In this document: positions 2,740 to 47,192 of the stretch, piece by piece
How positions within the stretch are numbered: the stretch's first letter is position 1
Layout of the letters: the number at the start of each line of letters is the position of its first letter
DNA from: a virus
Direction: 5' to 3' (one strand)
Length of the DNA stretch: 64,000 nucleotides
Virus record (IMG/VR): IMGVR_UViG_3300044630_004692
Coordinates: 1 to 64,000 of that record
Notes under the pieces: model-generated
The model's database searches: none
What the model was told of the DNA's origin: nothing
The model's input: only the letters and a program-made list of their open reading frames with translations
Translations under genes and position numbers: made by a program

Positions 2740-2863
2740 AACCTGCTCCAAATGCAAAACTGAGAAACCCCTTGACAAGGACCACTACCAAGTGGTAAAA
2801 TACTTTCGTTCTGGTTTCTCCTATTATTGCAATGAATGCAATAAACCCAAACCCAAGGATTGA
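2690..2863 (+). CDS. small CxxC...CxxC zinc-ribbon-like protein, 57 aa
   Basis: After a Ser/Gln-rich N-terminus it has two CxxC pairs, CSKC near residues 20-23 and CNEC near 48-51, with an Lys-Pro-rich tail. This resembles the zinc-binding half of HNH/endonuclease-VII-like proteins, but no HNH catalytic residues follow. No later ATG or GTG exists in frame, so the 50-nt overlap with the upstream gene seems real. Its stop codon overlaps the -35 of the tmRNA promoter. Confidence 0.65.
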   Translation: MSSSSQRSQTSAGGGTRTCSKCKTEKPLDKDHYQVVKYFRSGFSYYCNECNKPKPKD

Positions 2864-2888
2864 CAAGATACTCTGTTCGTGGTATCAT
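2860..2888 (+). promoter_or_regulatory. sigma70-like promoter of the tmRNA
   Basis: TTGACA (2860-2865), 17-bp spacer, TATCAT (2883-2888) preceded by TG at the extended -10 position. Predicted start about 2895, exactly where the tmRNA acceptor piece would begin. Confidence 0.8.
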
Positions 2889-2894
2889 AAATAT

Positions 2895-3069
2895 GTCGGT
2901 TGGAAACCCAACCTAACTCATTCTGGACTGGGGTTCGACTCCCCACACCTCCATTCACGGGGGTGAACTGGTATCGACGGGGTGGGGGATGCGAGAACAA
3001 ATCTCAACAACATCGTAAAATTTGAGAGGACTTCTGTTGCTGTATAGTAACGAACTCTGACTCACAATC
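2895..3069 (+). ncRNA. ssrA: circularly permuted (two-piece) tmRNA
   Basis: tmRNA with its halves swapped. The 3' half comes first: the T arm TGGGG-TTCGACT-CCCCA (2929-2945), then the acceptor strand CACCTCC (2946-2952) and discriminator A2953. A 5-nt spacer follows, then the 5' half starting GGGGGTG (2959-2965), which pairs with that acceptor strand and keeps the G3-U70 pair read by alanyl-tRNA synthetase. Next come the conserved TGGTATCGACGGGG D-like segment and a tag frame NNIVKFERTSVAV from 3006, ending in TAG TAA (3045-3050). Cyanobacterial tags share NNIVKF. Permuted tmRNAs are established in marine picocyanobacteria. The role is rescue of stalled ribosomes. Piece ends are estimates. 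Confidence 0.9.
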
Positions 3070-3087
3070 GGGGGGAATTCCCCCCTT
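3070..3087 (+). terminator. intrinsic terminator after the tmRNA
   Basis: GGGGGG (3070-3075), loop AATT, CCCCCC (3080-3085), then TT. The stem is strong and the T-run weak. It closes the tmRNA transcription unit. Confidence 0.7.
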
Positions 3088-3538: not shown

Positions 3539-3736
3539 ATGGAAAATACCCAAATCTGTTCACTCAAGTTATCAAGAGTCTGCTCTGAAATTGAAAGTGT
3601 AATTAATACACTTAAACAAATTCAAGTCCATATGGACTTGAAAACTTATGTTAAAGTTGATGAGACAATTAGAAAACTTGATGAACACAAACAATATATC
3701 TGGCAAATATATAAAGATATTGATGTCTCGGAATGA
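3539..3736 (+). CDS. hypothetical protein, 65 aa
   Basis: Starts at ATG 3539; a longer frame would need a TTG start at 3473 and would translate repeat copy A, so I reject it. The product is helical, with a leucine/isoleucine heptad-like pattern over residues 8-50 that suggests a coiled coil. Its last four codons overlap repeat copy B. Function unknown. Confidence 0.65.
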   Translation: MENTQICSLKLSRVCSEIESVINTLKQIQVHMDLKTYVKVDETIRKLDEHKQYIWQIYKDIDVSE

Positions 3737-3761
3737 CTTAAAAACTTGCCCTGGTGGAGTC
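3726..3761 (+). repeat. imperfect ~37-nt repeat, copy B
   Basis: Begins TCTCGGA like copy A and contains GACTTAAAAACTTGCC and CTGGTGG. It overlaps the end of the 65-aa gene and then runs into non-coding sequence. Confidence 0.5.
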
Positions 3762-3889
3762 AAACATGACCCAATTTAGTCCTCGTCGGATTGGACATTA
3801 AATATGCCGACTGGTGCGGATGAGGAGTTTTTTAACTCCGCCGAGTTTCCAATTTTCTCGTAAACAAAATTGGTGGCGAGCCTGCAAAG
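3737..3889 (+). other. non-coding stretch with serial hairpins
   Basis: No gene is seen. It contains repeat copy C (3783-3820), a GGAGTT-TTTT-AACTCC hairpin (3824-3839) and a CCAATTTT/AAAATTGG hairpin with a 9-nt loop (3849-3873), and runs up to a strong promoter. It may be the structured 3' end of the upstream transcript or a small RNA locus. Confidence 0.5.
3783..3820 (+). repeat. imperfect ~37-nt repeat, copy C
   Basis: TCGTCGGATTGGACATTAAA, then TGCC and ACTGGTGCGGA. The most diverged of the three copies, about 57 nt after copy B. Confidence 0.45.
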
Positions 3890-34292: not shown

Positions 34293-37200
34293 ATGGCTCT
34301 AACGAGAGTAACTTCCAACGGAATTGCACCAGGCGTAGAAATAAAATTAAAAGATAATACACATGAATTAGAATCTACTGGATTAGCTCCAAGTAGCTAT
34401 TCGTTTACCCCAGCATTAAGTTTTGGTACAGTATCTGGTGGAGTTTATACTCACGATTCTAACACTGGTATTTACAGTCCAGGAGCAGATGAGCTTGCAT
34501 TTGGTACTGCAGGTTCTGAAAAATTAAGAATCCAAGGTGACGGTAAGATTATTCTATCAAACGGAGCAAGTCTTCCTGTAACTAATCCTAATTTTGATAG
34601 CGTAAATGCTAAAAATTTCATGCTTTACGTCAATCAATCTGACGTAAATGCATCAGATGCTCTGAATAATGACGGTGGTAACTTAAACAGACCATTCAAA
34701 ACAATTGAAAGAGCACTTCTTGAAGCAGCTAAGAGAAGTTATATTTCTGGAGAAAATAATGATAGATTTGAGGCATTTACCATCATGGTTATGCCTGGAG
34801 ATTATGTAATTGATAACAGACCAGGCGTACTTACTGCCGCTGAAATTCCAACAATTACTCAGAGTGGAGATACTTTCAGTGGTTGGTCAAACTTTGAAAA
34901 TGAAATTTGGAAATTTAACCCAAGAAGTGGTGGTGTTATTGTACCTAGAGGTACTTCTGTTGTTGGTTATGACCTCAGAAAAACTATCATTCGTCCTAAG
35001 TATGTTCCAAAACCAGGAGAATTTGAGACTGGATTAACAATAAATCCAGCTGGAGATGATTTAGGAGGAAGTATTATTAATGATGGTCTATACATTAATA
35101 ATATCCTTCAAGATGCCGCTAACATGGTTGAGAAGGCAAAGGAATATATTCAGGACCAAACCAAACTATTCCTATATGCAGAATATTCTACTCTCTATAC
35201 TTCATTAAGTTCTTCTGGTAAAATTGATAAGTGTGTAAGAGATTTAGGATATTTTGTTGATGGTCTCGTAAAAGACCTTAGAGAAGGTGGAAATATTAAT
35301 TCATTTAATGTTGGTGAATTTTATACAACTGGTGGAGACAATGATGGAGTAAATGAATTATCAGATAATCAATATCTACTAACTCAAGATGAAAAGGATG
35401 CGACCATTGCTGCATTTAATTATGCAAAAGAAATGGCTATTAAAGCAGCTCATGCATGGTCTGGTACTGCAGCATCCGCTATTTTCTCTCTCACTGATGA
35501 TGCTGCTGCTAGTGTAACTTCAGCATCATTTACTTCAGACACTTCAAATTCATACGCATACACTACAATCACAAGTTCTTCAAATGGAACTAACACATTG
35601 ACAAGTAGTGTTGATAAACCATCATATAGTGCAAATGTTGATTATTCAGGTTCATTAAATAGCTCTGCTTGTGCTGCAGTAGATGGTGTAATCACAACTC
35701 TTGCTGGAATTGTAACAGGAATTATTTCAAATCCAGATACTTATACTACCCTGTACAACAGAACTCCTGGTGTAGAAGAGCAAACTGCAATCTTCAAAGT
35801 AACTGGTGGTTGTTACTTCTGGCAGATGACATTCAAGGATGCTGTCGGACAAGGACAAATTTATAAGTCTACTAGCTATACTGGAAATAACCCAACTCAC
35901 AATCTTGCAGATAGCAGTGATTTTGAGAATGGAGCACTTAAGTATTCTCATCACAAAGTAGTTGCATTTGCATATGCAAACCAAAGAACTACAGATGGAG
36001 AACTAGAAACATATTACAAAAAAATTGATAAGTGGGATATCATTTATGATGGAGATTCTGCTTCAACTCAAAGAAGATTTACAAGACCAGAAGAATATAC
36101 TATTGTTGGAAATTCTTCTGTAAAAACTGAAATTGATACTGTAAGTTCTTGCTCACCATACGTATTCAACTGCTCACTTCGTTCTACCCGTGGTATGTGC
36201 GGAATGCACGCAGATGGAAGTAAGGTACAAGCAAACAGCTTCAAGTCAATGGTTGTTGCTCAGTTTACTGGAATTTCTCTACAAAGAGATGAGAACGCTT
36301 TCTATCAGCCAAAAACTTCTGACGGTATTCCAACAAATACAACAAACCCATCAGACGCACCTATCTATACTGACCCAGACGCAGAATATAAACCAGAATA
36401 TAGACATTATCACATTAAAGCATCTAATGCTGCATTCATTCAGATTGTTTCTGTGTTCGCAGTTGGTTATGCTGACCAGTTTATTACTGAGTCTGGTGGA
36501 GACATGTCTATCACCAACTCAAACTCCAACTTTGGTCATGTTTCACTAAGAGCTGTAGGACATCAAGAGAAGGTATTTGAACCAGCAAATCAAGGAAAAA
36601 TTACTGCAGTTATTCCTCCTAGAGGAATTTCCAGAACTACTTCAGATGTAGAATTTTATGGAATTGATTACAAACTAACTTGGCAACTTAACGGTCAAAC
36701 AAGTAAAACATATAATGAAAATATTAGACAAACATTTATATCTGGTTCACAGCTATTCAAAGTTTACTTAGATATTCCTGGACTAAACACTGAGGATGAT
36801 ATTCCAGAATTTATTTTAGAAGTAGAAGATAAGAATCCTTCTGCAACTCAGACTACTGTAAGAAAGAGATTCTTAACTTACGGAAGTAATAATAATTATC
36901 TACTATTCAGAGATTATTATACTGCATCTGGTGTTTGTGATGATTCTTATGCAACAATTTCTGCTACTGTAGAAGATGAGACTGGAGCTTCTCCAACTGA
37001 ATTCACTGCAAATATCAATCTTACCAAAACAGATTCTACTTTAAGTGCATCAAACATTGAAAGACAAGGTTATTATTGGGATGAAACAAATAAAAAAATC
37101 TACATTGAAATAGATGCTTCTACATCACAATCTGATGCATTCTTAACAGGATTTATTTTCAAATATGAGACTGAAGTTCAATTTAGAACTAGTCAAGTTA

Positions 37201-40200
37201 CAAGGTCAGATAATTCAATTCAAGTTATAACTGAGCAAGTAAATGTAAATATTCTATCATATTATGATGGATTCCCAGTATCTCTATCAACTAAAAAGAT
37301 TATTGATGATAGAACATCCGTTCCTTCTGATTTAATTTGGCGAGTAGAGTATACAATTCCTAAGAATTGCCAAAAGACACCAAAGCCACCAGAAAAGAGA
37401 TTTATTATCAGAGGAACTCAAGCTGGAAGTACTCTTGCTCCAGATAGTTTAACTTATTCCGAATGCAGATTCCTAGTTTATGATGTTGAAGAAGTTCAAT
37501 CATGGTCAAAAAATAGTAGAGATGGTATTTACTACTTGACTGTTATTCGTGCAGATATTGACCAGTTTGCATATAATAATGAAAGGTCCACTGATGTAAA
37601 TGAAACTTATACTATCACCAGAGGGTCAAGAGTAGTATCAACTCTAAAAGGTCTATATAAAAATTCTAACTATAGAGTTGCAAGTAATATCAATTACTTA
37701 TATCCATCAACTAATGAAGATGGTCCAGCATATATTAATGGATTTGATTCCAGAGGAAATCCAATTTATGCTGGTTCTGCAATTGCAACTATCTGGAACC
37801 CACCACAGGCAGAATCTAGAGTACTAATTGAAAAGATTGATAGTGGATATAGATGTAAAGATTTATCAGTTCCAAATGTTGCATCATATACTACTGAAAG
37901 TGGAAAAACTACTTTAGCTGGTGCTGCAGTTCCTTTTGCTGATACTCCTTCAATGTATTCTATTACTGCAGAAGCAGTACAAAGACTTGTAGATTCATTG
38001 GGATTATATTATGCAGGGACAAGCAGTGCAGATTCATCCACAGTTAAAGTAGCTCCAGTAGTTTCTTGGTCTCAAGCTAACTTTGATGAAGTTACTAGCA
38101 ATACTTATGCATATAGCTCAACTCCATTCGCAGTATTTAAAGCGAATACTCGTACTGGTACATCTTTTGACACTACAATGCCAGAAGGTGATGTTTTAGC
38201 AAATAACACTTATGGTATTAATAAATCTCCTTCAGAAAGAAAGATTAATGTAGTAGCTAAATCATCTACTTTTAGCACACAAGATGCTCTAAGAGATGCT
38301 GGTGTAGATTGTCCTCTATACAGACCATCAATCATGAGAGCATCTTCCCATACTTGGGAATATGTAGGTCTTGGTTCTGGTAACTATTCAACTGGATTCC
38401 CAAATCAGCAAACCAGAGTACTCAAGAGCTATGAACAGTTTATTGTTCAAGGTTATGAAAATGGTGGTGGATTTGTTGCATCTTCTGGTACAAACTCAAA
38501 TGGTGACTTCTATGTTGGAAACCAAGTACAGCAAGCTGGTGGTACTACAACATTCACACTAAACGTACCTAAAGTTCGTAAATCATCAGAAACTAATTAT
38601 GTAGATATTTCAGATATTGAAAACAGAATTTCTAATGCTGTTGTAAACGTTGGTGGTTCTAATAAGAATGCAAGCAGCCAGAATTTCCTCAAGAGTTTGT
38701 CAAACTTCTTTACTACTGCAAAACTTAATGTTTCTGACCGTGCAACTATTCAGACTGCATTAATTCAAGATAGATTATATCTTGCAAATACAAGAATTTC
38801 AAATGGTGAGAAATTCCCAGAAGGAAATACTGAAGGATACGGATTTACCAAGGCTGCAAGGTCTGAAAAAGTAGGATTTATTTCTACTGATACAAATGAT
38901 AGATTATATGTTTCTCCTAAGTATCTAGATGCATGGAGAATTAAGAGACAACTATTATCTGCAACTGCAGTATCTCTTGACAACAACAGAATTTATCTAC
39001 AAACTCCAGGTAATACACTATTAGATGGTACTTCTACAACTACTTCAGATGCAGTAACAACATCATCAACTACACTATTTGTAAAAGAATCTGCTGGTCT
39101 TCCTGCCACTGGTCAGGTAGATATTGTAATGAATCTTCGTTATGTAGACTCATCACATTATGTTTTAGATTCAACAAATAAAGTATTTTTAAATCCTTAC
39201 ATTTCATTGAATCTTAAGTATGATACTATTGATTACACTAATAATACAATTTCCTTATCTAGCACACAAAATACATTTAGCAGACAAACTTATCTTGAAG
39301 ATATTTTAGGAAAGACTGGAACTAACGTAGTTTCTACTAATTATTCATTCAATAAAGTCATTAAAAATTGGTCTTGTATTATTGATGATGGTCCTACTGC
39401 AAGTGAAACAAACCAAATTTACCTTGGTACAAAATTAGATTCAAACTTTACAGTTGGAAATGACGTAATTTCTCCAACATCTACAAGAACTATTACAATT
39501 AAAACTGATACAACAGATTCACTTGCTAAGTGGAATCTATTCCCAAATAGAGGTGCAATAACTCTTCGTGAGCAAACTGGTACTACAAACGCTACATTAA
39601 AATATGCTACATTTGTATATGTTAAGAGCAGCACTCAAGGTCAATTAATTTTAATTGATAGAGTTATCGGAGGAACCAATTCCAACGTAAATAACACAAC
39701 TATTTTCAGCAGTGCATATTCTGGAAATAATGTATTCTTCTCTGGATGTGATTGTTCTGTAATTTATGCTGATAAGTGGGCATCTGAAAAACCATTCATT
39801 CCAAATACAGAAACTATTTCTGAAGATGTTGACCTAGATAGTGCTACTTTACACCAGATACCAGAAAAACCATCAACTTATACTGGAGCAATTGATAAGT
39901 CATACACTGATAAGAATGTTCCAAACCCATATAGTTCTAAAGCATTGGGTCCTAGCCTACAAAACAGACTTGCAGTTAAGGAGTTTAGACCTTTAGCTAC
40001 ATTAGCACAAGCTGCACGTTGGTGTTCTGCTGGAGGATTTACAACAACTGATACAGTTGAATTGCTAATGAAGCCAGGATATTATCAAATAGATACTGCT
40101 TCATTCCCATGCCGAGTTAAGATTAATGGTACTGGAGTTTCTAGAACTGGAGGTGCAGTAGGAAAAGAAACAGCATCTGTAAGTGCTGGTAGAATTGGAG

Positions 40201-43200
40201 GATATTCAAATACAGGGTCATATAGTACATCTGGTTTGAAGAGAGCAGATAGTGTTTATTTCTATAGACCAATTAGAATACAACCTAACTACGGAGCAAG
40301 AAGCAACCAGTTCTATGTTACTGCAGATAACAATATTTCATCTGCTGGTGGATTTGACTTAAGCAATGTTCACTTTATTTCATTGGGAGAAGCAGCAGTA
40401 TGTAATGAAATTCTCGATTCTGATTATGCTGGAAGTGATGGAATTTTATCTGCAGCAAGACAAAGAGTAAGAAAGGCATGGTTTGTTAAGAAATCAAGTG
40501 GATTCCCATCTACTTCAAGTGGAATTACTGGAGGATTAAGTTTCTTAATGACTGCTAGTGGTGCTGCTGGAAAAGGAAAGATGGAATTCTATTGTAGCAC
40601 AACTACAACAAATTCCAGTGGAGATTTTACATTACCATCAAGTACTACATATACCACTGGTAAGTATGTTAAGTTTACTTTAAGTGCTTCTAATTTCACT
40701 GGAACTTCTGGAACTCCATCAGATTCTCAGAAGTATAAGTGGGCAAAGAATTATATTATTCCTGGTTCTACATTATACTTTATCCCTGGAAATACTACAT
40801 TAGGAAATGTAACTTCATCTTCCAAGGCAGTAAAAATTGTAGAAGTAAATATCAAAGCAAAAGATGTCAATGCTCCATCTGCAACTAGTTTGGAAGAAAT
40901 TGAATTCATTTGCTCAACAACAAATGGCACAAATACAAATAATATTGAAGATTTAATTTTAGATAGCAGCACTCAAAATTGTCAGATTGTTGTTGTAAAC
41001 CAAGATGGTGATGAAATTCCAACTTTAATCTTCAATTGGGCGTATGCTCAAAGAAAGGCATTCATTCCTCATGACTTTGCATTTGGTGGAAGTGCTACAA
41101 GTGCTACATCACCAAATACAGTTTCTGATACTGGTTATGTAAGTACAAATATTACTGCTGGTGGATTAGCAGTGAAGAGATTTGATAAGCCAGAAATTTT
41201 TGGTATTATTGCAGGATTCTCTCCTGGAAGTATAAACCTTGTTATTGATACCAATCCAACTGCAGATAGTCTTAAAGACCCAATTGATGGAAGTACATTA
41301 ACATCTCCTCTTGCTCCATATCCATTTGCATCAAGTTATATTTCATTTAGAACTATACTTCTAGAATATAAAGATAATCAAGGTGAAGATGCAGCTATTG
41401 CAATTCCATACTTCCCAAATGGTTCATTAAGAATTGCAGGAAGAGTATATTCTAGATTCTATCTATTACAAGTAAATCCAAATGATATTGCAAGTAATGT
41501 AGAAAATACTGGAATAGATTCAACTATTTTAAGTCAATTTACTAACTTTAATTATAGTACACTGCAAGCAAATAATAGCATTGCTATTATTGGTGGAGTT
41601 GGAACTTTAAGTGGAGCAACAACAAGTTTTGCAAACCTATCAGAATTTGTTTCTGTAGCTAAGGGAAATCTTGCATACACTGGAATAACAAATCCATATA
41701 AGAAGGCGACAAATAGAACACAAAGTCTATTCAATGGCGCTATTCAGTCTGGTTCATATGCAGTTGGTAAATTTAATTATATTCATTATGCATATGTACA
41801 TAGATGGTCAAGAAAACGTTTTATTTCAATTAATGGGTCATTCGTTGGAAATATTGGAGGAAACTTACTCAGAACTGATGCGGCTCTAGGTGGAACTTCA
41901 AATATTTGCACACTAACTAATGTTACAATTGGTGCTCAATCTCCTTCAGATAGCATTTATAATAGAACTGGTGGAGGATGGAGAGGAGGATTAATTAGTG
42001 CCAAAGGTTCTAGAATATCTTTAAGCGGAGTAAGATTCCGTGGAAATGTAACTTTAGATTTCACTGGATTAGTTGTAAATCCTGGTGGAGATAGAGTGGG
42101 AACAAATTATACATATGGACACTCAGTAGAAGTATTCCAAGTTGAAGATGAAGCTGTATTAAGTAAGTTAGGTGGCAGTAACCCTGCATCATTCTTATCC
42201 GTTTCCAAAAATGATGAACAGTTTAAATATCTTTATGAAAATAAAATTTTAAGTAATTTATACTTAGAGCCATTTAGAACTCCTTATGGCGAGGTAATTG
42301 ATTATGATAGAAGAACATTCCCAATTTCTTGCTATCAAGCACTAAAGAGATTTACTCCTGGAACAACTGATTTAAATACTTCAGTTACTATTAATGAAAG
42401 GTATCAAACTCCATATAGAATTATTGCAGGAACTACTCACAATAGTGCTACAGATTCTGGAACACATCTAAGAATCAATAGAAGTGCTAGTGTTACTTTG
42501 GTTGACAAAACTATCATTGGTGCATCAACCCCAATTATTATTCCACCAAGAAGTATCGCATTTAAATACTACAATGATGATGTAATTAATAATATTTTCT
42601 ATGGAGAATTTGCAACTAAAGTTATCAGAGCAAGTAATCAATTTACTACTTATGGAAACGTAACTAAAATTAATGATTCAGCAGCTGGAAGTGGAACTGC
42701 TTCAAATAGTAATCCAAAGGTTGCTGTAATAACATTATCATCTGCAATTCCTACTGAAATTCTTGGTTATTATAGCGGAACTGCTACTCCGAATACAGGT
42801 TCACAAGATTTTGGTGGAGTTATAGTATCAAATTATATTGAAGTTACAAATTCAGCAGATTATACTTCTGGAACATCTTGGGATGATACAAATTCAATTA
42901 AATTCTTAACTTTATATCTAAATTCAACTCGTTACAATTATATTACAACTGCAACTTCTAGATATGAAAAAACAGTTGATAGTGCAAGAAGCTACTTAAG
43001 ATTAAATTCAACTGGAACTCCAGTATATGCAATACATTCTGATATTAAAATTACTTCATCTAATGTACCTAATTTAACTAAAGGTTCTACTCCAATTGAG
43101 TTTACAAATACAAAATCTGGAACTACTCCACTAAAAGCTTTTGTAACTACCAACTCTGCTGGTGCAATTACATCATTCGATATTGTTTCTTATGGTAGTG

Positions 43201-46200
43201 GACACTTAAAAGATAACATTCTTACATATACTTCTGGTTCAAACAAGATTGAACTCAAGTGCTTACGTTCATTAGAAGGAAATATTGAATTATTTGATAC
43301 TGGAGAATTCATGGTAGTTCCTCCAAGACATTGTTTTGTTCTTAATAATATTAATGCTAATTCTCTAGTTGGCGTTAAGCAAGAATTGCAAAAAGCCAAA
43401 TCAATTATTAAACCATTCTCCTACATAAGACTAGGAACTGTTTACTATAAGATTGCAAATGATGCTACAAATGAACCATATATTTGCGTATATTCATATG
43501 TAAATGAAGTAAATCTAGCAGACGTTAGATATTCAATAGTAGTAAGATTAGAAGATAATACATATGCACCAACATATCCAGCTACACAAAGAATGGATGT
43601 GTTTGAACTTGAAACTATCTTAGATTATTGGCCAACTTCTGGTAGAGTACAATTAGGTGATGTGGAAATTGCAGATTTCACAAAAGGAACATACGCAGAT
43701 GCTACTGGATATCCATTAACAATAACAAGAAGCAATACTAAGTATTGGCCTTCTTATATTCGTGATTTTGAAGGTCTTGACCCAGAAACTGAAGACGTTG
43801 ATGTATCTGTGGAGCAGTTTGTACCAACTACAATTGCATTAGCAGACCCAGTTGACTTAACTTGTGCTGGATTAAGAAAGATTGCTTCTCCTTCTACTGA
43901 TAACGGAACTGTAACAATAACAGTTCCAGAGTATATTACTCCAGATGGTAAGAAGACTACTGATAGATTAGTAATCAAAGTTCCTACTACTGCAAGTACA
44001 CAGGTAGCAGATGCTAAGAAGTATAATATTGGAGATATAATCCATATTCCATACAGAAGAACTGATGCAGATTCAGTTGGTACATTGAATGTATATAAAA
44101 TTTCTGGTTATGTTAGTGGAACATCATTAACAGTTTCTTCCGTAACTGGATTAAAAGCTGGAATGACATTAACAAAAACTGCTGGAACTGGAGTTTTTGC
44201 AGCATCAACCACAATTTCTTCAATTAATGCTACAACAAATACAATTACATTAAATACTGCAGCAACTACAGCGGGAGCAATTACATTTAATGCTACTTCT
44301 GGAACTGGAACTTGGGAAGATATTGTATGCACTGTAGTTGCAGATACAGAAACTGATTCTAGTGTGGTTGCAAATAAAGCTGGAAGTACCAGAATTAAAG
44401 TAAAGGTGAACATGTCTTCAAGTGGACAATCAATTTCTTGGACAAATCCAACTGCAGTTGGTGCATTTACTTGGTTCCATATTGTGCCTTCTACTTCTAC
44501 TAATTCCACAATTTATGGAAAGGTAAATCCTATTGGAGTAGTTAGATTCCAAAATACAACTTCTAGTATTTCTTATGCTGCTAGCCCAGCAACAGTTAAT
44601 CTAATTTGTTCTAGTGCATTACTTGCAAATCTATCTGCTGATGAAACATTCTCATTAGTTCCAATGTTTAAGACATTGGAAACAACAAGTCCAGTTAGAG
44701 TATTTAAATCTAGAATTGTTGATATTGAAATTCCTTCTTCAGATACAAGCACTATTAGAATTCATACTGCAGACCCAGCACCAGAACTTTGGACTGATGG
44801 ATTAGGAACATCTGCTAACTTTAGACATTATGGTTTCTTCTTTGTAAATCATAATGGTTGGACATATCCTAGAAATGGTGGAAGTTCAGTTAGAGTAAAT
44901 AATGTAGTTCCAGGTACTGGATATACTCAAGCTGCAACTGGTACTTCTGGAAGCAGTACAATTACATTGACTGCATCAAATTCTAACATCTTAGTTGGAA
45001 TGAGTGTTACTGGTACTGGAATTGGAAACCTTGCAAAAGTAACAGCAATCTCTGGAACTACCGTTACATTGAGTGTTGCTAACTCTGGTGCTGTAAGTGG
45101 AACTATAACATTTGGAAGTCAAAATCTTGTTAAATTACCTAACTTTAATGATAGAATTAAGATTGGTGATATTTTAAGATATTCATTTGAAGAAGTTGCA
45201 CCTAGCGGAACAATAACTGCTACTATTGCAAACTCAACTGCAAATAATGTAGGTAACATTTTAACTCTAGTAACACCACCAACTACTGGAAGTCTCAAGC
45301 CTGGAATGTTTATTTACGGTGAGGGACTTGATGAAGGAACTATTATTGAAGCACAATTAAGTAGCACAACATTTAGATTGAATAACTCATACTTTATTAC
45401 AACTGCAATTACAATTTATCCTTACAGTAGTCCATCTGCACAATATCAGTATACTGGAACTGTAGTTTCTGTTGGAACTAAAGATTCAACTACTGGATAT
45501 TCAGAAATTCTACTCTCTGATAATTCAGGAACAAGACATATTTTAGACACAGCGTATTCAAATAAATCTGAATGGTCTACTATTGATGATATATTCATTA
45601 GCCATAGAAGTGACAACTTCACTGAAGATGGTCCAATTGCATCAAGATTTATGTATAGTGGCAACGGTGTTAAATTATCTACTGGTAGTTTTAGTCTATG
45701 GTATGAAAATTATGCAAACTATTTAAGTGGATACAATGGAATTGTCAGCAGACAAGGATGGGTTGGAAACTGGGGATTATCCAGAACTGGCGAATCAATT
45801 CTTGGATTTGATACTGTTGGTTCATCAAACCTTGTTTACACCAATCAATATAATGATACTATTTGGATATCTGCACAACCAACTATTCCATTATATTGGG
45901 GAAATTCCACCTTAATTGCTTGTGGTTCTGATATTAATACCTCAGTATCTCTTGATACTCTGTTTACTACTTCTGATAACGGTCTACCACAATATAATTA
46001 TGGTATTGGAACTCATAGACAACAAGTAATTCAGCATACCAGCTTACTTACTGATGACATTTATACATCATTCAATACTTCTGCTGCAGATTCTGGAGGA
46101 CATGATGCTCTTGATATTTCAAGATACCAGTTATCATCAAAACCAACTCTAGAATATGTTTTAAGAGATGCAGTAATTAGTCAAAATAATGCAACTTCTG

Positions 46201-47192
46201 CTGGTGGTGCAATCACTCCTGGAACTGGAAAAAATAGAAGACTATTTGAACAACTAATCTGTGATTATACTACCTATTATAAGCCAGTAAATACATTTGA
46301 TAGCGTAAATACATACACCACAACTTCATACAGTCAACTAAAGATTGCATGTAATTCAGGAGAATATTCCTGGAAGGCAGCTCCAATTCAGATAGCAACT
46401 ACTGGAGTTACTACATCTGGTGGATACGCTACATTCACATTTGCAACACAAACTTCAGCACCATATTCAGTGGGTCAAACAATTACTATATCTGGTGTAA
46501 CACCAACTGGATATAATGGTGTTTATACAGTAGTTGATTGTACAACAACCACAGTAGTTGTTCAATCATCAACAACTGGTGCAATTACAGTACAGGGAGC
46601 AATTACTTCAAGTATTGCTGCTACTGCAACTAATCTAGTTGGTCTGTCTGTTGGTGATGCAATTTATACTGAAGCTGCTGGAACTTATGTAGGAACAATT
46701 GCTTCAATTAATTCAGATGGATTAGGAGGAACATTTGTTCAACCAGCACTAGCTGCAGTTGGTTCAGTTGGTTATGCAAGTCCATTTACAATTACACTAG
46801 GAAACATTAGAGTACTCTCACCTAGAGCTACTAGAATTGCTCCTTCTCTTGCATACACTTCAACTCTAAACCCAACTTCAAATACTTCTGTTGGAAAATC
46901 TGGTACTACAGGAACAAATATAATTGCTCCTTCACAACCACACTTCAACCAGTATAATTTCAGATATTCACTAGAAAGAAGAAATTATAATGCAACACCA
47001 CTTGTTAATACTGAAGGAATTGTGAGAGCTGTAAATACATACAATTTTGCTAGCGATTCTGTTAACGTTGCTATCGGTGATATTTGTAGATACAAGTCTT
47101 CACTATTGAATGTACAAATTACTAGACTAAATAGCAAGGTACACATTGAACGTTCAATTACCGTAGCTGGTAGACCTGTATTTAATATTTAA
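34293..47192 (+). CDS. giant virion structural protein, probable tail fibre, 4299 aa
   Basis: An uninterrupted frame of 12.9 kb, about one fifth of the window. The N-terminus carries THDSNTGIYSPGADELAF (about 50-68), a motif of cyanophage fibre proteins. A beta-helix/pectate-lyase-like module begins at DALNNDGGNLNRPFKTIERA (about 119-138), and a related opening recurs near 1885-1930 (FRPLATLAQAARWC). Around 3270-3335 and 3550-3610 two related Thr/Ser/Gly-rich beta modules occur. Composition is rich in Thr, Ser, Asn and Gly with very few Cys. Few charged coils, so it is more likely a long beta-structured fibre or baseplate-associated spike than a tape measure. A late promoter precedes it. Confidence 0.85.
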   Translation: MALTRVTSNGIAPGVEIKLKDNTHELESTGLAPSSYSFTPALSFGTVSGGVYTHDSNTGIYSPGADELAFGTAGSEKLRIQGDGKIILSNGASLPVTNPNFDSVNAKNFMLYVNQSDVNASDALNNDGGNLNRPFKTIERALLEAAKRSYISGENNDRFEAFTIMVMPGDYVIDNRPGVLTAAEIPTITQSGDTFSGWSNFENEIWKFNPRSGGVIVPRGTSVVGYDLRKTIIRPKYVPKPGEFETGLTINPAGDDLGGSIINDGLYINNILQDAANMVEKAKEYIQDQTKLFLYAEYSTLYTSLSSSGKIDKCVRDLGYFVDGLVKDLREGGNINSFNVGEFYTTGGDNDGVNELSDNQYLLTQDEKDATIAAFNYAKEMAIKAAHAWSGTAASAIFSLTDDAAASVTSASFTSDTSNSYAYTTITSSSNGTNTLTSSVDKPSYSANVDYSGSLNSSACAAVDGVITTLAGIVTGIISNPDTYTTLYNRTPGVEEQTAIFKVTGGCYFWQMTFKDAVGQGQIYKSTSYTGNNPTHNLADSSDFENGALKYSHHKVVAFAYANQRTTDGELETYYKKIDKWDIIYDGDSASTQRRFTRPEEYTIVGNSSVKTEIDTVSSCSPYVFNCSLRSTRGMCGMHADGSKVQANSFKSMVVAQFTGISLQRDENAFYQPKTSDGIPTNTTNPSDAPIYTDPDAEYKPEYRHYHIKASNAAFIQIVSVFAVGYADQFITESGGDMSITNSNSNFGHVSLRAVGHQEKVFEPANQGKITAVIPPRGISRTTSDVEFYGIDYKLTWQLNGQTSKTYNENIRQTFISGSQLFKVYLDIPGLNTEDDIPEFILEVEDKNPSATQTTVRKRFLTYGSNNNYLLFRDYYTASGVCDDSYATISATVEDETGASPTEFTANINLTKTDSTLSASNIERQGYYWDETNKKIYIEIDASTSQSDAFLTGFIFKYETEVQFRTSQVTRSDNSIQVITEQVNVNILSYYDGFPVSLSTKKIIDDRTSVPSDLIWRVEYTIPKNCQKTPKPPEKRFIIRGTQAGSTLAPDSLTYSECRFLVYDVEEVQSWSKNSRDGIYYLTVIRADIDQFAYNNERSTDVNETYTITRGSRVVSTLKGLYKNSNYRVASNINYLYPSTNEDGPAYINGFDSRGNPIYAGSAIATIWNPPQAESRVLIEKIDSGYRCKDLSVPNVASYTTESGKTTLAGAAVPFADTPSMYSITAEAVQRLVDSLGLYYAGTSSADSSTVKVAPVVSWSQANFDEVTSNTYAYSSTPFAVFKANTRTGTSFDTTMPEGDVLANNTYGINKSPSERKINVVAKSSTFSTQDALRDAGVDCPLYRPSIMRASSHTWEYVGLGSGNYSTGFPNQQTRVLKSYEQFIVQGYENGGGFVASSGTNSNGDFYVGNQVQQAGGTTTFTLNVPKVRKSSETNYVDISDIENRISNAVVNVGGSNKNASSQNFLKSLSNFFTTAKLNVSDRATIQTALIQDRLYLANTRISNGEKFPEGNTEGYGFTKAARSEKVGFISTDTNDRLYVSPKYLDAWRIKRQLLSATAVSLDNNRIYLQTPGNTLLDGTSTTTSDAVTTSSTTLFVKESAGLPATGQVDIVMNLRYVDSSHYVLDSTNKVFLNPYISLNLKYDTIDYTNNTISLSSTQNTFSRQTYLEDILGKTGTNVVSTNYSFNKVIKNWSCIIDDGPTASETNQIYLGTKLDSNFTVGNDVISPTSTRTITIKTDTTDSLAKWNLFPNRGAITLREQTGTTNATLKYATFVYVKSSTQGQLILIDRVIGGTNSNVNNTTIFSSAYSGNNVFFSGCDCSVIYADKWASEKPFIPNTETISEDVDLDSATLHQIPEKPSTYTGAIDKSYTDKNVPNPYSSKALGPSLQNRLAVKEFRPLATLAQAARWCSAGGFTTTDTVELLMKPGYYQIDTASFPCRVKINGTGVSRTGGAVGKETASVSAGRIGGYSNTGSYSTSGLKRADSVYFYRPIRIQPNYGARSNQFYVTADNNISSAGGFDLSNVHFISLGEAAVCNEILDSDYAGSDGILSAARQRVRKAWFVKKSSGFPSTSSGITGGLSFLMTASGAAGKGKMEFYCSTTTTNSSGDFTLPSSTTYTTGKYVKFTLSASNFTGTSGTPSDSQKYKWAKNYIIPGSTLYFIPGNTTLGNVTSSSKAVKIVEVNIKAKDVNAPSATSLEEIEFICSTTNGTNTNNIEDLILDSSTQNCQIVVVNQDGDEIPTLIFNWAYAQRKAFIPHDFAFGGSATSATSPNTVSDTGYVSTNITAGGLAVKRFDKPEIFGIIAGFSPGSINLVIDTNPTADSLKDPIDGSTLTSPLAPYPFASSYISFRTILLEYKDNQGEDAAIAIPYFPNGSLRIAGRVYSRFYLLQVNPNDIASNVENTGIDSTILSQFTNFNYSTLQANNSIAIIGGVGTLSGATTSFANLSEFVSVAKGNLAYTGITNPYKKATNRTQSLFNGAIQSGSYAVGKFNYIHYAYVHRWSRKRFISINGSFVGNIGGNLLRTDAALGGTSNICTLTNVTIGAQSPSDSIYNRTGGGWRGGLISAKGSRISLSGVRFRGNVTLDFTGLVVNPGGDRVGTNYTYGHSVEVFQVEDEAVLSKLGGSNPASFLSVSKNDEQFKYLYENKILSNLYLEPFRTPYGEVIDYDRRTFPISCYQALKRFTPGTTDLNTSVTINERYQTPYRIIAGTTHNSATDSGTHLRINRSASVTLVDKTIIGASTPIIIPPRSIAFKYYNDDVINNIFYGEFATKVIRASNQFTTYGNVTKINDSAAGSGTASNSNPKVAVITLSSAIPTEILGYYSGTATPNTGSQDFGGVIVSNYIEVTNSADYTSGTSWDDTNSIKFLTLYLNSTRYNYITTATSRYEKTVDSARSYLRLNSTGTPVYAIHSDIKITSSNVPNLTKGSTPIEFTNTKSGTTPLKAFVTTNSAGAITSFDIVSYGSGHLKDNILTYTSGSNKIELKCLRSLEGNIELFDTGEFMVVPPRHCFVLNNINANSLVGVKQELQKAKSIIKPFSYIRLGTVYYKIANDATNEPYICVYSYVNEVNLADVRYSIVVRLEDNTYAPTYPATQRMDVFELETILDYWPTSGRVQLGDVEIADFTKGTYADATGYPLTITRSNTKYWPSYIRDFEGLDPETEDVDVSVEQFVPTTIALADPVDLTCAGLRKIASPSTDNGTVTITVPEYITPDGKKTTDRLVIKVPTTASTQVADAKKYNIGDIIHIPYRRTDADSVGTLNVYKISGYVSGTSLTVSSVTGLKAGMTLTKTAGTGVFAASTTISSINATTNTITLNTAATTAGAITFNATSGTGTWEDIVCTVVADTETDSSVVANKAGSTRIKVKVNMSSSGQSISWTNPTAVGAFTWFHIVPSTSTNSTIYGKVNPIGVVRFQNTTSSISYAASPATVNLICSSALLANLSADETFSLVPMFKTLETTSPVRVFKSRIVDIEIPSSDTSTIRIHTADPAPELWTDGLGTSANFRHYGFFFVNHNGWTYPRNGGSSVRVNNVVPGTGYTQAATGTSGSSTITLTASNSNILVGMSVTGTGIGNLAKVTAISGTTVTLSVANSGAVSGTITFGSQNLVKLPNFNDRIKIGDILRYSFEEVAPSGTITATIANSTANNVGNILTLVTPPTTGSLKPGMFIYGEGLDEGTIIEAQLSSTTFRLNNSYFITTAITIYPYSSPSAQYQYTGTVVSVGTKDSTTGYSEILLSDNSGTRHILDTAYSNKSEWSTIDDIFISHRSDNFTEDGPIASRFMYSGNGVKLSTGSFSLWYENYANYLSGYNGIVSRQGWVGNWGLSRTGESILGFDTVGSSNLVYTNQYNDTIWISAQPTIPLYWGNSTLIACGSDINTSVSLDTLFTTSDNGLPQYNYGIGTHRQQVIQHTSLLTDDIYTSFNTSAADSGGHDALDISRYQLSSKPTLEYVLRDAVISQNNATSAGGAITPGTGKNRRLFEQLICDYTTYYKPVNTFDSVNTYTTTSYSQLKIACNSGEYSWKAAPIQIATTGVTTSGGYATFTFATQTSAPYSVGQTITISGVTPTGYNGVYTVVDCTTTTVVVQSSTTGAITVQGAITSSIAATATNLVGLSVGDAIYTEAAGTYVGTIASINSDGLGGTFVQPALAAVGSVGYASPFTITLGNIRVLSPRATRIAPSLAYTSTLNPTSNTSVGKSGTTGTNIIAPSQPHFNQYNFRYSLERRNYNATPLVNTEGIVRAVNTYNFASDSVNVAIGDICRYKSSLLNVQITRLNSKVHIERSITVAGRPVFNI

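Follow-up and report, generated by a model that had tools for sequence, protein, structure and literature searches.

A tmRNA is usually described as linking the rescue of ribosomes to the destruction of proteins by means of a peptide tag whose Ala-Ala end is nearly fixed. In Cyanobacteria it is a two-piece RNA (RF01851; ssrA of Prochlorococcus and Synechococcus), encoded in the order 5′ hairpin, acceptor piece, spacer, coding piece, 3′ hairpin, with an alanine-type acceptor stem and a tag that starts NNIV.F.R; in the consensus, GCU (Ala) is the resume codon and PVAA the tag end. Two-piece tmRNAs are already known from phages and account for 53 of the 133 unique structures in one survey of phage tmRNAs (PMC9004378), which also covers the methylophage Melnitz, an aquatic phage whose two-piece tmRNA is, like the one reported here, phage-encoded, but alphaproteobacterial in type. 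The mycobacteriophage DS6A likewise carries a tmRNA without normal features, in that case a TLD-only molecule. Changed tag ends are familiar from the engineered ssrA variants AAV, LVA and ASV, in which altered last residues, Val-ended forms and weaker degradation go together; these are man-made versions of the E. coli tag, whereas the cyanophage tags described below form a natural viral family.

The locus reported here lies in IMG/VR record IMGVR_UViG_3300044630_004692, a 64.4-kb fragment of a T4-like cyanophage, of which we analyzed positions 1 to 64,000 (hereafter, the window). Its gene content is of the cyanophage type, with psbA, a gp32-type SSB and baseplate hub proteins, and CpeT and a phage lysozyme are also encoded. 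A circularly permuted two-piece tmRNA gene occupies positions 2893-3085. The Rfam covariance model for permuted tmRNA, RF04321, matches at 2919-2989 with 60.9 bits (E 2.5e-9), above its gathering score of 47 bits. The locus gives no full-length match above the gathering score (70 bits) of the cyano_tmRNA model RF01851, and its best match within the clan is to beta_tmRNA, at 59.6 bits and under the cut-off of 84; the tmRNA of cyanophage S-CAM3 passes RF01851 with 127.2 bits. A one-piece tmRNA called by ARAGORN, with the tag GGNSPLQNII, is spurious, as Rfam and the relatives show a permuted gene.

The gene follows the cyanobacterial order of elements, and it shares gene order, a short spacer and the tag family with the tmRNAs of other cyanophages (S-CAM1, S-CAM3, S-SSM7, Sf-FS3, S-CRM01, AG-345-P14, UViGs L197/L215/L233, and L190). 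The acceptor piece is encoded ahead of the coding piece, the strands GGGGGTG and CACCTCC are complementary over seven pairs, and the MFE structure of the two pieces folded together contains the 7-bp acceptor stem (P1), the T arm and a 9-bp P2 (Table 1). The alanine identity elements G3-U70 and A73 are found in the window tmRNA and in all 55 parsed cyanophage genes, among which acceptor-stem pair 5-68 varies between G-C, A-U, U-A and C-G, a good case of covariation. Spacers are short, 4-9 nt, in 55/55 cyanophage-type genes with a parsed acceptor stem, and S-CAM3 has a promoter (TTGACA-17-TAATAT) at the equivalent place.

Table 1. Elements of the permuted tmRNA gene, in window coordinates.
Feature	Position	Strand	Basis or remark
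Sigma-70-like promoter TTGACA-17-TATCAT	2860..2888	+	11/12 consensus matches; directly upstream of tmRNA
5′ hairpin of precursor RNA	2898..2913	+	Cofold; position of first hairpin of Rfam cyano_tmRNA model
Acceptor piece	2917..2953	+	RF04321 match; two-piece MFE fold
P2 strand of acceptor piece	2917-2925	+	9-bp P2 in two-piece MFE
T arm	2929-2945	+	Present in two-piece MFE
3′ acceptor strand CACCTCC; discriminator A (A73)	2946-2952; 2953	+	
Spacer TTCAC (5 nt)	2954..2958	+	Removal in maturation expected
Coding-piece 5′ end: acceptor strand GGGGGTG, D-like segment, P2 strand (2978-2986)	2959..2986	+	RF04321, cofold
Shortened pre-tag region, ending ACAAAT (-6 to -1 of resume codon)	2987..3002	+	
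Resume codon CTC (Leu), likely	3003..3005	+	Register and context match relatives' CAAAC-GCA
Tag codons NNIVKFERTSVAV	3006..3044	+	Aligned with 34 distinct cyanophage tags
Tandem stops TAG TAA	3045..3050	+	
Hairpin GTTGC/GTAAC at tag end	3036..3051	+	Paired in 5 distinct sequences
G+C-rich 3′ hairpin GGGGGGAATTCCCCCC, RNA end	3070..3085	+	Folding; position of last hairpin of cyano_tmRNA model

The coding piece is shorter than in cyanobacterial two-piece tmRNA. The pre-tag region, at about 18 nt, is roughly half as long as in the nearest relatives (about 39 nt), and cofolding found a short hairpin before the tag but no pseudoknot-like element of PK1 size. Rescue by the E. coli RNA can survive changes in pk1 (PMC2481249). 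The 3′ hairpin resembles a terminator without a T run, and a terminator scan did not flag it.

Positions 3003-3050 read CTC AAC AAC ATC GTA AAA TTT GAG AGG ACT TCT GTT GCT GTA TAG TAA, or L-NNIVKFERTSVAV followed by two stops, with VAV rather than Ala-Ala at the C-terminus. A chance origin of this frame is excluded by the covariance-model match and by 58 distinct cyanophage-type tmRNA sequences that carry the homologous frame in register. Upstream of the CTC codon, position -4 is A and position -5 is C (context CAAAU-CUC; the nearest relatives read CAAAC-GCA). In E. coli tmRNA, A86 (-4) is critical, with A86U inactive and U85C (-5) tolerated (PMC2481249), and bases are preferred at -4 and +1 of the resume codon (PMC3022190). 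Given the A at -4 and the matching context in relatives, CTC (Leu) is likely the resume codon; AAC as the first tag codon was rejected because U would then fall at -4, the change that inactivates the E. coli RNA. CTC is the sole non-GCN resume codon in the set, all other cyanophage examples having GCN and, unlike the window tmRNA, a longer pre-tag element. An initial annotation, made from the letters of the window, had proposed that a phage tmRNA bears a tag of cyanobacterial type, that this tag ends in Val in place of Ala and that the codon before NN is not an Ala codon, and all three hold: the gene matches RF04321, its tag aligns with those of cyanophages and ends in VAV, and CTC stands where other cyanophage tmRNAs use GCN. 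Other genes (L002, L018, L237 and similar ones, of the S-CAM3 and S-SSM7 types) probably resume translation several codons ahead of NN (UAGAU-GCA or CAGAU-GCA), which gives extended tags such as ANTSDSAANNIVAFSRSTVAA, of up to ~30 residues.

The usual, though not absolute, Ala resume codon is thus absent from the window tmRNA, and +1 is C, not the usual G. The C at +1 and the shortened pre-tag region lower our confidence that this particular RNA is fully active. One could go further and regard the window copy as decaying, or as a decoy that would occupy SmpB and interfere with trans-translation by the host, a role suggested for DS6A (PMC4131195, PMC11915505); the reduced pre-tag region, the CTC codon and the long branch in the tmRNA tree (below) would fit. 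We consider this very improbable, as the tRNA-like domain, the promoter, the A at -4, the tag frame, the double stop and a covarying hairpin are all intact. DS6A tmRNA is without a tag frame, whereas the frame here is not only intact but conserved in register, which a decoy would not need.

The VAV end recurs in other phages with different codons. The window has GTT GCT GTA TAG; L088 and L190 have GTA GCC GTT TGA, L203 and L220 have GTT GCC GTT TGA or GTT GCT GTT TGA, and L170 has GTT GCA GTT TGA. On the tmRNA tree, no fewer than three changes, on branches with good support, are needed to account for VAV. The window sequence groups with L197/L215/L233, which end in QTV and likewise use GTA TAG, but its branch is long (0.45) and loosely placed, and the nearest relative tmRNA is 70% identical. 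A second UViG carries the same tmRNA and is identical over 25.6 kb; it perhaps comes from the same population and so adds only weakly independent support against error. The initial annotation had allowed that relatives might show VAA and this copy be a sequencing error. This objection fails: Ala-Ala ends are in the minority among related tags (below), and other phages encode VAV through synonymous codons and a different stop, which together with the identical second UViG makes an error unlikely.

To place this tag among those of other phages, we drew on two IMG/VR pattern scans and searches of phage records, which gave 85 cyano-type loci in a first table and, after isolates were added, 58 distinct gene sequences encoding 34 distinct complete tags. 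The endings are ATA (6), VAV (5), VAA (5), VTA (4), ATV (3), ALV (3), SLV (2), QTV (2), and AAL, VPA, TLV and VVA (1 each), so that most cyanophage tmRNAs are without the Ala-Ala end, which is kept in only 5/34 tags. Control tags were recognized by the start GCN-AA.., a rule by which 28 viral and 5 genomic loci were unassignable; among the assignable ones, Ala-Ala ends 14 of 15 distinct tags that these scans recovered from non-cyano viral contigs and 6/6 distinct tags of betaproteobacterial genomes. The contrast between cyanophage and control tags has a Fisher P of 2e-7, though the tags are not independent. Isolates on known Synechococcus hosts follow the pattern, Sf-FS3 (WH8102) ending in ATA and S-SSM7 (WH8109) in VTA, and the S-CRM01 tag ends in VAAL. 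Judged by these predicted tags, a non-Ala-Ala end is a general cyanophage trait, not a peculiarity of the window phage; our literature search found no description of cyanophage tag ends shifted from Ala-Ala. The survey also turned up unannotated tmRNA genes in the phage records S-CRM01 (L004, ~1980-2180) and S-CAM1 (L235, HQ634177). L310, a 247-kb relative of the window phage, has a cyano-type tmRNA at 1478-1737 with the tag ANNIVAFTRQTALV, in which the T loop (GGCAGTA for TTCGANT) and the D-like segment deviate from otherwise invariant sequences.

Possession of the gene varies among close relatives. Of 50 contigs that share the gene upstream of the tmRNA (66-92% identity), 48 have no RF04321 match, these contigs being fragments in which absence is not proven phage by phage. 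The upstream-gene search gave 71 loci, and a motif scan placed a tmRNA at the same site only in the near-identical contig; a search for relatives through the downstream gene returned the same virus only. With most near relatives lacking it, the tmRNA is not essential and looks like accessory cargo of the phage. In L239, a near relative, positions 3690-3810, compared by eye with window positions 2740-2870, hold a serine tRNA-like gene at the tmRNA site after the shared gene, which suggests that small RNA genes may be swapped at the site that follows the shared upstream gene.

These observations could be read as relaxed selection: if only ribosome release were needed, the degron would drift under loose constraint and the altered ends would be non-adaptive. 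The 12 endings with 19 changes on the tree, the variable tag length and the absence of the tmRNA from most near relatives are in keeping with this. Drift should, however, also produce polar and charged ends, whereas 33 of the 34 distinct tags end in A or V, and the penultimate position is filled by A, T, L, P or V and never by a charged residue; free drift would not yield such a distribution, and the end of the predicted tags is constrained, not random. The synonymous differences between VAV codons point the same way, and we regard relaxed selection as rather unlikely. RNA structure enters as well, since the Val-Ala codons lie in the stem of the tag-end hairpin, which is paired in 25/25 cells across five distinct sequences even though bases on either side of pairs have changed; the covariation is modest, 6 of 120 permutations doing equally well. 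We rejected the view that structure alone dictates the final Val, as the codon of this residue, together with most of the stop codon, falls in the loop and varies between GTA and GTT.

A constrained end might still be a full degron, if host ClpX/ClpC or an adaptor accepts A/V or if another protease reads these tags. The strictly small or hydrophobic end would agree with that, as would the reduction of protein levels by AAV- and LVA-type tags in Synechocystis. We think it improbable. The Rfam cyanobacterial consensus, on which our comparison with host tags rests, a single genome scan having yielded betaproteobacteria, is ANNIVSFSRPAAPVAA, and phage contig L199 retains ANNIVSFSRQAAPVAA; moreover, Val-ended tags are the weaker ones in Synechocystis (PMC3446811). 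There, E. coli-type ssrA tags rank from LVA, the strongest, through AAV to ASV, the weakest (quoted in PMC3446811), and AAV was again the weaker tag in a further report (quoted in PMC9486961). Val-ended tags nevertheless still lower protein levels (quoted in PMC3446811, PMC9486961), although the tags in those data were of the E. coli type and ended in AAV, whereas here VAV closes a cyanobacterial tag. By analogy with tags that are weaker yet degraded, slower degradation is a likelier effect of VAV than none; the initial annotation had proposed that the phage would free ribosomes without destroying its truncated proteins.

We therefore favor, with moderate confidence, the reading that the permuted two-piece tmRNA of the window, which is of cyanobacterial type, would rescue ribosomes with a tag whose C-terminal degron is weakened, not abolished. 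From the features described, we infer that the tmRNA would be transcribed from its own promoter, its precursor processed into separate acceptor and coding pieces, and the RNA charged with alanine, and that it would rescue stalled ribosomes together with host SmpB during infection. The added tag, A-LNNIVKFERTSVAV, would be a member of a cyanophage-wide set in which the Ala-Ala degron is replaced by small or hydrophobic ends (TA, AV, TV, LV). With a ClpXP signal that is weaker but not absent, ribosomes would be recycled and the breakdown of truncated proteins would be slowed. More tentatively, and as a possibility we lean against, cyanophages may repeatedly have evolved tmRNAs that separate rescue from proteolysis, the phage RNA taking over trans-translation and host ClpXP reading the tags poorly, so that phage and host fragments would be spared. 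A viral tmRNA family that is natural and large, with an intact tRNA-like half and an altered tag end, is a ready test of whether viruses gain from rescue without rapid degradation, and cyanophage tags could be a source of degradation-tag variants for cyanobacteria.

Other RNA motifs are predicted in the window. A match to the wcaG motif (RF01761, 52 bits), a cis-regulatory RNA family, lies downstream at 3777-3887, and one to abiF RNA (RF03085, 44.8 bits) is at 409-445, directly before a tRNA-Gly gene. Farther along the window, an open reading frame of 4299 codons spans 34293-47192, amid structural genes.
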